64,000 nucleotides of DNA from Aegicerativicinus sediminis. Lineage in GTDB: Bacteria; Bacteroidota; Bacteroidia; Flavobacteriales; Flavobacteriaceae. The notes under the pieces were generated by a model. That model worked only from the letters and a program-made list of their open reading frames with translations. It ran no database searches and had not been told where the DNA came from. A program made the translations under genes and the position numbers. Shown in pieces: positions 45,592 through 53,743 of this stretch. Positions within the stretch are counted from its first letter, which is position 1, and each line of letters starts with the position of its first letter. The DNA lies in assembly GCF_015476115.1 (NCBI RefSeq), contig NZ_CP064295.1, positions 1,730,001 through 1,794,000 on the forward strand. Direction: 5' to 3'.

Positions 45592-47997
45592 TTACCATGT
45601 TATTGTCATGTGCTCACCATCTCCAAGTTTAATATGTTGAGTTATACCGTTGTAAATCAGTTTTGTCTCGCGTGCTTTTTTTGCTATTATTTCAGTGGAA
45701 ACAAGTTTATGATTTTTCCATTCCATCGAAATTTCAAAACCGCCTCTTGCCCTTATTCCGCTCACCCTACCTTCATCCCATGCATCTGGTAGTGCAGGCA
45801 ACAGGTATATCTCATTCATAGAAGATTGCAATAACATTTCTATAACAGCAGCTGAACCTCCAAAATTCCCATCGATTTGAAATGGAGGATGTGCATCAAA
45901 AAGGTTAGGGTAGGTGCCCCCATGGCCTTTATGTATCCCATCTGAAGCATCTGGATCCACATATTTTAGTAGTTCCCTGTACATTTTATATGCCCTATTG
46001 CCATCTAATAAACGCGCCCATAAATTAATGCGCCAACCCTTAGACCAACCTGTGGTTTCATCACCCTTAATTTCTAAGGTGGTGCGCGCAGCCTCCGCTA
46101 ATTTTGGTGTGTTGATTGGTGTGATTTGGTGACCTGGATACAAACCAAATAACTGGGATTGGTGTCTGTGTTTTGGATCTTGATCCTCCCAATCATAATA
46201 CCATTCTTGTAGGTTACCTCTAGCTCCAATTTTATAGGGCAATAATTCTTGATTAACCGCTTCAACTTTTTTCACCAACGAATCGTGGACATTTAATTCC
46301 TTAGAGGCATATATGAAATTATTGATTAGCTCACGAATCATAGCTATATCTGAGGTGCTTCCGTACATGGTAGCCCCTCGATATCCATCGGGAGTTATAT
46401 AAATATTTTCAGGCGAGGTTGAAGGCGAAGTTATCCAATTTCCATAACGGTCTTTTATCATCCAATCCAAACAAAATTGTACAGCGCCCTTCATCAATGG
46501 ATAGGCCTCTTCTTTCAGGAATTCAGTATCTAAGTTAAATGAATAATGCTCCCATAAATGGGTTGCCATCCATACCCCACCCATATTCCAATTTGCCCAA
46601 CTAGGATCTCCCTTCCCAAAATCTCCAACAGGATTAGTCATGGCCCAAATATCTGAATTATGACCACTGGCCCAGCCTCCGCAATTGTAATAGGTTTTTG
46701 CTGTAACACTTCCAGTTTCAGACATGTTTTTTATAAAGCTTAAAAGAGGTTGATGGAGTTCAGAGAGGTTGGCTGTTTCTGCCATCCAATAGTTTTCTTC
46801 AGCATTAATATTTAAGGTGTAATTACTGCTCCAAGGGGGACGTATATAGGGGTTCCAGATGCCTTGGAGATTGGCTGGTACTCCCAGAGTTCTAGAAGAT
46901 GCAATAAGTAAATAACGACCATATTGAAAATATAAAATCTCTAGATTTTTATCCTCCAGATCATAATCGCTATACCTTAGAAGTCGTTCGTTGGTGGGTA
47001 AGTCTTGGGCTAAACTCTCTCCGAAATCTAGTTGAACTCTGTTAAATAATATTTGGTAGTCCTCAGTATGTCGAGATTTTAATTCATCAAAAGTTTGATT
47101 AAATGCATGATCTAGATTTCGTAACCCAATTTTATGATGGTCTTTTCCTTCAGTGACAGGATTTTTATCGAAACCATTGAAGCTTGTTTCCATTGACACA
47201 TAAATAATAGCCTCACTTACATTTGTTAGGTTTAAGGAAGTGCCGTCGGTTTCTAACAACCCATCTGTGTGCTTAACCTTGAAAAGTGAAGTGAAGCGTG
47301 TTCCTCTTTCGGAATCAAACTTTATGGCTTCAGGCATATCTCCTCTATAACTAGGTTCTACATGGTAAGGTGCATAACCCGATGCTCTTAGAACCTCTTC
47401 AGAAGTTGAGATTGAGTATTTCATTTGGCTATCAAACCGTAGACTACAATTGATGGAATTAGGTTGGTCACTTGATAAACGAATAACCATGATGCTATCT
47501 GGATGGGATACAAAATATTCTCTTTTGTAATCTATTCCATTTTGGGTGTATGTAACTGTGGAAATAGCGTTTTTTAAATCTAATTCCCGTCGATAATTAC
47601 TATATCCTTCCTCATTATTGTTTTTAATAAATAATGTCCCTAATGGCATATATGACTCCGAAAATTCACCCTGCACATAACGGTTTAAAGAATCCGCTAA
47701 CTTATAATTTTCATTTTTTAATGCTTCCCTAATCAAGGGTATGTAAGAGCTGGCTGTTGGGTTATTGTCTGGATTTACTGGTTCTCCAGACCAAAAGGTT
47801 ATGTCATTGAGATAAATTTTATCTGAATCTACGCCACCAAATACGGAGGCTCCAATCTTCCCATTTCCTAATACCAGTGTTTCTTCAAAAAATTCGGCGG
47901 GTTTGTCATACCATAACACATCCTTAGGCTGTGCTATTAATAGAATATTCTGAAAGAACGTTAGGGCTGTAATAGGGATTATAGAAGCTTTGAACAT
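45592..47997 (-). CDS. GH95 alpha-L-fucosidase (or alpha-L-galactosidase)
   Basis: 801 residues from MFKASIIPITALTF, whose signal-like N-terminus I prefer to the ATG at 48087 (which would overlap the S41 gene). GH95 marks: KPAEFFEETLVLGNGKIGASVFGG at the N-terminal beta domain and the (alpha/alpha)6 barrel. The catalytic residues of the Bifidobacterium AfcA model are matched: N396 and N398 (LNINAEENYW), E530 (TSPSTSPENIY) and D709 (FQIDGNFGG). It inverts at the anomeric centre. Substrate may be fucosylated algal glycan; a few GH95 members are alpha-L-galactosidases. Confidence 0.93.
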   Translation of the reverse strand: MFKASIIPITALTFFQNILLIAQPKDVLWYDKPAEFFEETLVLGNGKIGASVFGGVDSDKIYLNDITFWSGEPVNPDNNPTASSYIPLIREALKNENYKLADSLNRYVQGEFSESYMPLGTLFIKNNNEEGYSNYRRELDLKNAISTVTYTQNGIDYKREYFVSHPDSIMVIRLSSDQPNSINCSLRFDSQMKYSISTSEEVLRASGYAPYHVEPSYRGDMPEAIKFDSERGTRFTSLFKVKHTDGLLETDGTSLNLTNVSEAIIYVSMETSFNGFDKNPVTEGKDHHKIGLRNLDHAFNQTFDELKSRHTEDYQILFNRVQLDFGESLAQDLPTNERLLRYSDYDLEDKNLEILYFQYGRYLLIASSRTLGVPANLQGIWNPYIRPPWSSNYTLNINAEENYWMAETANLSELHQPLLSFIKNMSETGSVTAKTYYNCGGWASGHNSDIWAMTNPVGDFGKGDPSWANWNMGGVWMATHLWEHYSFNLDTEFLKEEAYPLMKGAVQFCLDWMIKDRYGNWITSPSTSPENIYITPDGYRGATMYGSTSDIAMIRELINNFIYASKELNVHDSLVKKVEAVNQELLPYKIGARGNLQEWYYDWEDQDPKHRHQSQLFGLYPGHQITPINTPKLAEAARTTLEIKGDETTGWSKGWRINLWARLLDGNRAYKMYRELLKYVDPDASDGIHKGHGGTYPNLFDAHPPFQIDGNFGGSAAVIEMLLQSSMNEIYLLPALPDAWDEGRVSGIRARGGFEISMEWKNHKLVSTEIIAKKARETKLIYNGITQHIKLGDGEHMTITW

Positions 47998-48050
47998 ATT
48001 AAAACGTTTAAAAAAGGATGTCAATTTAATCAACTCTGTTGAAACAATGT

Positions 48051-49493
48051 CTAATCGATTAACTTCAATACTTCCTGCAAATCCCAATCTTCCTTTTGAA
48101 GAAAGTAGCGATATTTTGTTTCTTCTGAAATAGGTATGTCTGGTTCTATTTTTGTGCCAGGAATATTAGTTACGGCTTCAGAAAATTCCAATACTCCCAG
48201 TGGCATACCCAACAGCAATTTAGAATTAGGGAGTTCATATTGTACTTGTAATCCAGCCGTAATTGTTTTGTGAGAACCTCCCAATTGCTCCCCTACTAAT
48301 TTCCCCCGGTTTTCACTTTTAAAAAGTGCCGTGAAATGTGAGGCAGCCGAAAAGGTTTTCCCACCAATTAATAGATAAACGTTACCATTATAGGCCCTTT
48401 TATTAGGCTTCATCTTAAAGCTGTCAATGAACCTATGTTCGTAATGGTCATCTATTTTGGTAAAAGGCTTTTTAAAATCCTCTATTATCTGGGTTATAGC
48501 TGAATCATCAACTTCTCTTCCCTCGATAGTTTTGATGTATTCCTTATACGGTAATTGAAAATCTGGAATTTTTAGATGTATAGTTTCATTAAAAGGTTTG
48601 GCTGCCAGGTATGAATAAAATAACGCCGGGATAATCATGCGTCCACCACCATTATACCTTAAGTCGATTATAACATTCTTGGGGTCTTTCTTTTTTATGT
48701 CCTTGAAAAGTTCGGTGAACACATCGTCGAATTCTTTGTAAAAATTATCTGAGTCGGTTTTTGCATTGAACGAATTTAATTGAACATAATAGGTGTCTTT
48801 TTCTTCAAAATATTTTGTGTTAAGCAAATTGGATAAACTCTCCCGATCTAAAGGATATATTGCGTTTCTATGTAAGGTTTCCCTGCTTTTTACATCTATG
48901 GCCTCTACCCAAATAGTTTCAATTATGCGTGAATTTGGTGGTGTATAAAGTATCTTAAACGTTTCGGCACTTCCATACTTAATTAAGTAAAGCGCATCAA
49001 ACGATGGTTCAAGATTCCTCAGGGTGAAGGCATCCTTCCTATTCAGCATTTCATCTAAAAGTTCCCCGACTTTACGATCATTAATTTCATGAATGATTGA
49101 ACCATAGGGTAAAGGCAACTTTTCGTGATTCACTACCAATTTATCGTCGATTATTAAAATAGGAATTGGGAATAACACATTGCTTTGGGTTAATATTTCC
49201 TTCATAACATCTGCGGATAGGGTAAGAGACCCATGCTCATCCGTTTTGGTATTGGCTTTTAATTCAATTAGAAACCGGAAGAACTCAATGCTGCTCATTT
49301 CTTTGTCCTGCAACTCACTTTCATGGCTATTGAAGTAGTTTATTAAATTAATCTTATCGTCTGCGGTAAGAGCAGGTGAGACTTCTGAAATGATTGTTTT
49401 TAATATTTCATAATCTTCTTTAAGTTGGGTTTCCTTAAGTTGCGATTGTGAGAAACAGCAAATTGTGGATAGGAAAAAGAGAAGGTGTTTCAT
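48051..49493 (-). CDS. Secreted S41-family peptidase-like protein
   Basis: 480 residues with a signal peptide ending CCFSQ (about residue 16). The C-terminal half has the S41 (tail-specific protease/IRBP) core: NVIIDLRYNGGGRMIIPALF (about residues 275-294) and GGKTFSAASHFTALFK with candidate catalytic S382. The N-terminal part may contain a degenerate PDZ-like segment. A full Ser-Lys pair cannot be assigned by eye. It lies 53 bases before the GH95 start, on the same strand. Confidence 0.8.
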   Translation of the reverse strand: MKHLLFFLSTICCFSQSQLKETQLKEDYEILKTIISEVSPALTADDKINLINYFNSHESELQDKEMSSIEFFRFLIELKANTKTDEHGSLTLSADVMKEILTQSNVLFPIPILIIDDKLVVNHEKLPLPYGSIIHEINDRKVGELLDEMLNRKDAFTLRNLEPSFDALYLIKYGSAETFKILYTPPNSRIIETIWVEAIDVKSRETLHRNAIYPLDRESLSNLLNTKYFEEKDTYYVQLNSFNAKTDSDNFYKEFDDVFTELFKDIKKKDPKNVIIDLRYNGGGRMIIPALFYSYLAAKPFNETIHLKIPDFQLPYKEYIKTIEGREVDDSAITQIIEDFKKPFTKIDDHYEHRFIDSFKMKPNKRAYNGNVYLLIGGKTFSAASHFTALFKSENRGKLVGEQLGGSHKTITAGLQVQYELPNSKLLLGMPLGVLEFSEAVTNIPGTKIEPDIPISEETKYRYFLQKEDWDLQEVLKLID

Positions 49494-52062: not shown

Positions 52063-52785
52063 TTAACCGAAAAAGCGTATTAATTTTTCACCCCAACCAG
52101 CATTGAGTAATGAAAATATGATCGGTAATGTTAAAAGAAAAACAATTAAAATTACGACCGAGATTTTATATGGCTTTTTTCTCTTAACAATATCATATAT
52201 AATCAATGAAATTGGGAATAAATAAATTACGGTAAATTTCAAAAGTGGGTGAATATCCTGTAGTCCTAATGGGTCAATAAAACGGTCAAAGGCAGGATTT
52301 AATAAAAGTCCAGACACACCGAACATTGCTCTTTTATGGACGTAGGGTTTGTTTCTTTTATAATACCCAATTGCCAAAAAGGCTAAACCGCTTAGGGTTA
52401 GGTACAGATTGCCTACGACCAGTCCGCCAGTATTTTCAAAAGTCCTAATGACATCGTAATAAGATTTTTCACCATTCATAGTTTCTGAAGAGATTTCCAA
52501 TATTACGTTTAGGTTAGCCATGGTAATGATTAGTGCAAATAAGAATCAAAAGGTCCCAAATCTTCGATGATTAATAATGTTGCCTTTATAAACTAAATGA
52601 GATTGGTAAACATAGGCCACATACCATATAACCATTAAAGCCCCATGAATTACTAAATAGGATGGAATTGACGTTTCTTTATAAATGGGTCGAAAGAAAA
52701 ACCCTTTAGAAAATCCAATTATTACAACAATTAGAAACATCCATGCCGTAATCAAAAAATAGCTGTCTCTTTTTCTTCCCATCAC
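52063..52785 (-). pseudogene. Multi-pass membrane protein, interrupted by an in-frame TGA
   Basis: Two open frames of 79 codons (52546-52785, starts MMGRKRDSY) and 152 codons (52063-52521) lie in the same reading frame, separated by one TGA (52546-52548) and seven to eight sense codons. Read through, they give one protein of about 240 residues with roughly seven helices: helix pairs around FLITAWMFLIVVIIGF, LVIHGALMVIWYVAYVYQ, FLFALIIT and FPISLIIYDIV. This suggests a TGG-to-TGA nonsense change or a sequence error. Alternatively the second part is translated alone from MANLNVILEI. Function not recognised; the broken amidohydrolase is next door. Confidence 0.6.
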
Positions 52786-52807: not shown

Positions 52808-53743
52808 TTAATTGCCTAAGCCCAAAAATCTCGCCGCGTTATTGTAAAAAATATCAGCTTTTTTTGTTTTTGGGTTAAAAATTCTGCAGAATTTACCGTT
52901 TCAATGGCGACATCAATAGTGTCGGGCCAAACCATTTGGTCCGTGCCAAACATAATTCTATCACCAAAGCCGGCTGTGATTAAGGATTTGATATAACTAT
53001 AAAGCTCCTCTTTTGGTAATATCCAATTTATAACAGCGATATCTACGTATACATTTGCATGGGCGTATAGAAGTGCTTTTACATCCTCCACATAGGGCCA
53101 TCCACCATGCATAATATATAATTTTAATTTAGGGAATTTAGCCAATACTGGTTCCAATTGTGTGGGGCTTGCATTATTAACACGCATTCCCCCCCAACAT
53201 TTCTGGCATAAGGTGTATTCCATTATTTGGTCCGCAAGGTAAAATATGAAAGCCAACAGGAATCTGTAACTCCTCAGCTAATTCAAAATAGGGTTCTTGT
53301 GAGGGGGCATCCGCTAAAATACCAGCATAGTAAGGAGCCATTTCGGCAATTGCACCTAATTTTCCTTGAGAATGAAGAAACCGTATGGTGTCTAGATTAT
53401 TAGTTTTTGCATTGATTATTGTCTCAGGCACATCGGTATACCAAAAATCTGCATTTGTTAGAATCGCCTTTTTAATGTTATACTTTTCAAATCGTTTTAA
53501 AATTTCAGTTTGAAGTTCCTTTGCGCTTTTACTTCCTTTAAAAGTTTGACCTCTAAGTGTTGGTGGATGGGTAAGTCCTAACATTGGATCACCCTCCTTA
53601 AAGGCATGGAGATGCATGTCTATAATTGGTCCGGTATATCGAGATTCGGTTGAAGAATTGTTGTTTGTTTGGCTAAAGCCATTAGGACAACTAAAAACTA
53701 AAGAAATGATAAAGATTAACAAAATGAGAATTGGTTGCTTCAT
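52808..53743 (-). pseudogene. Amidohydrolase_2-family secreted hydrolase, two frameshifts
   Basis: The N-terminal part (188 codons, signal peptide ending NGFSQ, metal motif DMHLH) stops just after a G7 run (C7 on plus, 53189-53195). With one base less, reading continues GGMRVNNASPTQLEPV and then through YIMHGGWP and MFGTDQMVWPD. A second run (T7 on plus, 52859-52865) needs one extra base to restore the usual ending YNNAARFLGL and a stop at 52808. The repaired protein has about 310 residues with both metal-ligand halves. Either the gene is dead, is switched by slippage, or the sequence has homopolymer errors. Confidence 0.7.

Follow-up and report, generated by a model that had tools for sequence, protein, structure and literature searches.

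A gene of the Amidohydro_2 type in the 64,000-nucleotide stretch of Aegicerativicinus sediminis DNA analyzed here (the window) has probably been inactivated recently, within a patch that appears to be decaying. This gene occupies minus-strand positions 53743 to 52808, and its reading frame, followed directly in the sequence, changes at a run of seven G residues and then at a run of seven A residues. An earlier note had offered three causes for this pattern, namely, slippage-based switching, recent decay, and assembly error, without choosing among them. Recent decay is the best supported of the three, because the neighboring gene is also interrupted, no other split gene was found among 67 comparable open reading frames (ORFs), and the copy carried by a second genome of the genus is broken elsewhere. 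Slippage-based switching has little in its favor.

The first part of the gene, ORF1 (53177 to 53743, minus strand; 188 amino acids), is the N-terminal part of an amidohydrolase with the motifs DMHLHA and GFHILP. It begins with what we take to be a lipoprotein-like signal peptide, agrees with its family in alignments to relatives as far as ...HLMPEMLGG, and stops a few codons past the G run. This run (53189 to 53195, minus strand; seven C residues on the plus strand) marks the first frame break, where one base is in surplus. The C-terminal part, ORF2 (52816 to 53256, minus strand; 146 amino acids), lies in the next frame, overlapping ORF1, and carries the motifs IMHGGW and FGTDQM. Its agreement with the family extends from GGMRVNN... 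to ...LTQKQKK, and its ATG, starting at 53187, overlaps the stop of ORF1 by 11 bases. The second break, opposite in direction to the first, is found at the A run (52859 to 52865, minus strand; seven T residues on the plus strand). Beyond it, the conserved C-terminal end of the family is encoded in a further frame (52808 to 52858, minus strand), reading ADIFYNNAARFLGLGN before a stop at 52808. The two frame changes reported earlier were thus borne out, since each side of each run matches the family in its own frame.

The G and A runs are the only runs of at least seven in the 928 bases of the gene that were checked, and such runs cover 0.5% of the 324 kb sampled from the window genome, so that the location of both breaks at runs is hardly a matter of chance. 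This placing fits slippage, whether by a polymerase or by a sequencer. The breaks had been described as sitting exactly in homopolymers; both are indeed at or beside seven-base runs, but the first is not necessarily inside the G run. An intact relative, L007, carries seven G residues in frame at that site, and the surplus base may therefore be a G or the adjoining A. The description of YNNAARFLGL as the usual family end did not hold, since relatives extend further: about 11 or more residues follow FLGL or its equivalent in the eight named relatives aligned, in the paralogue from the window genome, and in the copy from the second genome of the genus, compared to just two in the window copy.

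Membership in the family was supported by a match of ORF2 to Pfam Amidohydro_2 (PF04909) at 63.2 bits, against a gathering score of 26.4. ORF1 alone gave no Pfam match, since even in the intact relative L010 the match to the profile does not begin before residue 134. All four motifs, DMHLHA, GFHILP, IMHGGW, and FGTDQM, are kept across the two frames, and we take their HxH, H, H, and D residues to be those of the metal site. No uninterrupted frame covers the whole Amidohydro_2 domain, which is crossed by the two frame breaks. A search of NCBIfam found no family for the ORF pieces or for two intact members. L010, the intact Amidohydro_2 gene of Lentiprolixibacter aurantiacus M415, shares about 64% identity with the window copy over the alignable parts and has the same motifs; the window copy differs from it in its two frame breaks, in a Gly-to-Cys change in HxxPGGP, and in a shorter C terminus. 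The sole solved structure matched by sequence with L010 at E values up to 0.01 was that of BB4693 (PDB 3irs), an uncharacterized and distant protein whose match was weak (residues 185 to 268; E value of 8.8e-5).

The Amidohydro_2-type gene is normally whole in the family. In a scan, 48 loci were found in named genomes; 44 of them (L007 to L050) were examined, and the weakest four (L051 to L054) were left out. An ORF of at least 290 amino acids was present in 42 of these 44, the exceptions being L044, which is cut by the end of a contig, and L049, which measures 232 amino acids from its first ATG. Among 397 family genomes, 27 had matches at E values up to 1e-30, at 31 places, and a stop-to-stop frame of at least 306 amino acids was found at 28 of them. 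The three places with short frames were the window copy (153), the copy in the second genome of the genus (249), and one place in another genome, G284 (199). This last family member (contig C64, 109404 to 109733), with its frame of 199 amino acids, is possibly broken or cut by the contig. None of the 15 relatives displayed carries seven A residues in a row where the A break lies, and neither a shared out-of-frame site nor a shared frame transition was seen among the 44 loci and the 31 family-genome matches. As in a pseudogene, the disruption is absent from relatives, the second copy from the genus being broken at another site.

That copy belongs to G001, which was the one further genome of the genus covered by the searches. 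Its amidohydrolase gene (L004:1096-2062) is broken near codon 78, at or next to a different run of seven A residues. Each of the two genomes has another, more distant, family member that is intact: a paralogue of 318 amino acids is retained in the window genome (G000), and a second member is present in G001. A common origin of the breaks in the two genomes was considered and rejected, as the sites differ and the copies are not sisters in the tree. In the tree, a group with support of 98/93 unites the window row with Lentiprolixibacter and two family genomes, and the G001 copy stands apart in an unresolved fork. No neighboring genes common to the two copies were found in the 32 kb compared. With a length of 0.56, the end branch of the window copy exceeds all others in the part of the tree to which it belongs (17 rows). 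One further row, L130_G, has a very long branch because it is a neighboring ORF of its locus and not the intended gene; it lies far from the clade of the window copy.

Constraint on the remaining sequence was assessed in columns that do not vary among 15 close relatives, which belong to a set of 37 intact rows. The window row had changes in 5 of 75 such columns, the highest share among 17 rows, including the Gly-to-Cys change in HxxPGGP; the intact L014 had 5 of 88. With a 90% threshold, the intact L020 (12 of 115) exceeded the window copy (8 of 99), and L014 (9 of 112) equaled it. In a relative-rate test against the intact L010 with six outgroups, 27 to 33 changes were unique to the window copy, compared to 24 to 31 for L010, with a chi-square value of at most 0.60. 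The substitutions thus give no clear sign of relaxed constraint, and in the relative-rate test the window copy shows no faster evolution than its intact relative. Together with the conservation of all four motifs, this suggests either that the loss is very recent or that the gene is intact and was misread.

The next gene downstream (52063 to 52785, minus strand), for a small membrane-type protein, is split into ORFs of 79 and 152 amino acids by an in-frame TGA (52546 to 52548, minus strand). This stop, which is not a run-length change, went unmentioned in the earlier note. At the position of the stop, two of four homologues have Trp (TGG) and the other two have Gly. When the halves were joined with an X at the stop, they aligned along single ORFs in L006 (242 amino acids), L100 (242), L101 (209), and L102 (234). 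Compared piecewise, both halves match the one ORF of L006, at 36% and 26% identity; at this range of 26 to 36%, the homologues of the neighbor are distant, which is a caveat to the reading of a decaying patch. Reading of TGA as an amino acid was unsupported, since TGA ends 33 of the 194 long ORFs sampled from this genome and is thus an ordinary stop.

The genomic background was sampled in 324 kb of the window genome, comprising the window, three more 20-kb stretches nearby, and ten 20-kb stretches elsewhere, and was compared with samples of 232 kb from G001 and 100 kb each from G015, G033, G026, and G022. A test for split genes by BLAST between the samples found a single split pair in the window genome, the amidohydrolase gene itself; 69 of the ORFs there had a homologue that was covered by the match over more than half of its length. 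Two of these 69 are the pieces of this gene, and among the 67 further comparable ORFs in the 324 kb no second split gene was found. Elsewhere, the test gave no split pair in G001 (51 ORFs), G015 (19), G033 (18), or G026 (22) and one in G022 (30); it missed the known break in G001, probably because the second ORF crosses the border of two sampled stretches, which makes it a weak test. Applied to the 48 named loci, the same test reported 35 split pairs alongside 200 ORFs, a result that was set aside because many of the pairs were judged to be antisense shadow ORFs of close species. A frameshift scan based on codon periodicity reported one strict event in the window genome, three in G001, and two in G015; the samples of G033, G026, and G022 had no strict event. 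These counts come from a weak scan: of 80 simulated indels, 30 were caught strictly and 30 more resembled overlapping genes. It flagged neither the window breaks, as ORF2 has an ATG at the break, nor the break in G001.

Inside the 194 long ORFs of the 324-kb sample there are 143 runs of at least seven. A/T runs of eight and nine are fewest in the window genome among the six sampled, at 10.8 and 1.5 per 100 kb, compared to 13.4 to 22 and 3 to 4 in the five others. Within the 64-kb window, A/T runs do not exceed eight, although about 13 to 14 longer ones would be expected from a dinucleotide model. Only 4 G/C runs of seven were counted in the 324 kb, which makes them rare. A search of the window found no tRNA and no Rfam family at gathering score. 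Elsewhere in the window, two same-strand genes (48051 to 49493 and 45592 to 48087) overlap by 37 bases, with a TTG start in the decoded model; the start of the second is uncertain.

The main rival to recent decay is an error of sequencing or assembly, whereby the lengths of the two homopolymers were miscalled and the gene would be whole and working in the living strain. We regard this as possible, though it is not the account that we favor. Homopolymer runs of seven are a classic site of sequencing error; both breaks are at such runs, and the coding sequence is well kept. Undercalling of long runs would give the observed scarcity of A/T runs of eight and nine and the deficit of long runs relative to the dinucleotide model, as would natural avoidance. 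It accounts for the shortness of the A run, whereas the extra base at the G run is left unexplained, and no split was found in the 67 further comparable ORFs despite the 143 runs of at least seven in the long ORFs. Moreover, the TGA in the neighboring gene involves no run-length error, and it would be odd for two errors in one gene and a stop in the adjacent one to cluster in such a sequence. The window copy resembles recent frameshift pseudogenes of bacteria, as grouped by Antonov et al. (2013; PMC3711429) into a pseudogene class and a singleton class, in having a similarity-supported break at a site that the relatives examined do not share. As stated there, similarity-supported frameshifts that homologues do not share, singletons included, are expected to represent errors in more cases than true indels, which would make unshared frameshifts such as these mostly errors, and those near the 3' end are likelier to be true. 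The window copy differs from such singletons by the interrupted gene alongside.

Three further explanations were considered. In phase variation, slippage would lengthen and shorten the runs and toggle the enzyme on and off, which we consider very unlikely here. A run of seven is short for a known phase-variation switch, and the gene would be on only if two runs with opposite shifts were both correct. The broken sites are also unshared, as none of the 15 displayed relatives has seven A residues at the A site and the G run of L007 is in frame, and the 143 runs of at least seven occur in long open ORFs of this same genome. Set against these points are the rarity of G/C runs of seven in the genome and the G001 copy, whose break likewise lies at or beside seven A residues. 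The product also looks exported, which is common in phase-variable genes according to PMC3711429, where A/T stretches of at least seven are counted as possible switches, so that length alone is not decisive. It seems just as improbable that we are dealing with a slow contingency gene of the genus, whose copies are parked out of frame at seven-base runs and revived by rare slippage. Different runs are broken in the two genomes, and an intact, more distant member exists elsewhere in each; the copies are not sisters, so that this state would have to have arisen twice. Recoding, in which ribosomal frameshifting or transcriptional slippage would join the frames into a full-length enzyme, is more doubtful still. 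The heptamer A_AAA_AAG is a -1 slip site, and the A run forms one in frame, as read by eye, with -1 being the direction of shift needed there. However, this heptamer is found in frame in 29 of the 194 long ORFs of the genome, and the G site would need a separate, opposite shift. The heptamer also lacks a clear downstream structure, such as a programmed -1 frameshift would have: the RNA after the A run, alone or with preceding bases, folds hardly better than shuffled sequences (z scores of -0.46 and -0.67), and that after the G run folds worse (z score of 1.65). The frame transition is not conserved, being absent from the relatives examined. Selection against transcriptional slippage, according to PMC1088944, is visible at nine A or T residues in a large share of genomes; the runs here are of seven. 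Switching and recoding are thus unlikely, given the short runs, the two opposite shifts, the lack of a shared broken site, and a slip motif that is common in the genome. Finally, ORF1 and ORF2 might be made as two coupled chains that together form a single barrel, the 11-base overlap of the ORF2 ATG with the ORF1 stop having the geometry of translational coupling. This is the least credible of the explanations, to the point of being nearly negligible: the ATG encodes the Met of the family motif GGMR and is thus present by descent, ORF2 still has the second break ahead of the conserved end, and a split at the corresponding place is absent from the relatives examined.

Under recent decay, the gene would have encoded a metal-dependent hydrolase of the Amidohydro_2 type that was exported and lipoprotein-like. 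Provided that the living strain has the sequence given here, as we infer, two single-base changes in length, most simply from replication slippage at or beside the G run and at the A run, would have shifted the middle and terminal parts of the gene into other frames. From the normal start, translation would then give a stub of 188 residues, and no active enzyme is expected, because this stub carries only two of the four metal-site motifs. With the in-frame stop in the neighboring membrane-protein gene, decay seems to affect both genes at once, over about 1.7 kb.

The pattern is thus real and its cause ordinary: most likely a recently lost gene, possibly an intact one that was misread. Its import lies largely in annotation, where the two ORFs should not be counted as two hydrolases. 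Both genomes of the genus examined here carry a frame-broken copy of a gene that is nearly always whole in relatives, and, if both breaks are real, the hydrolase would be dispensable in the genus.
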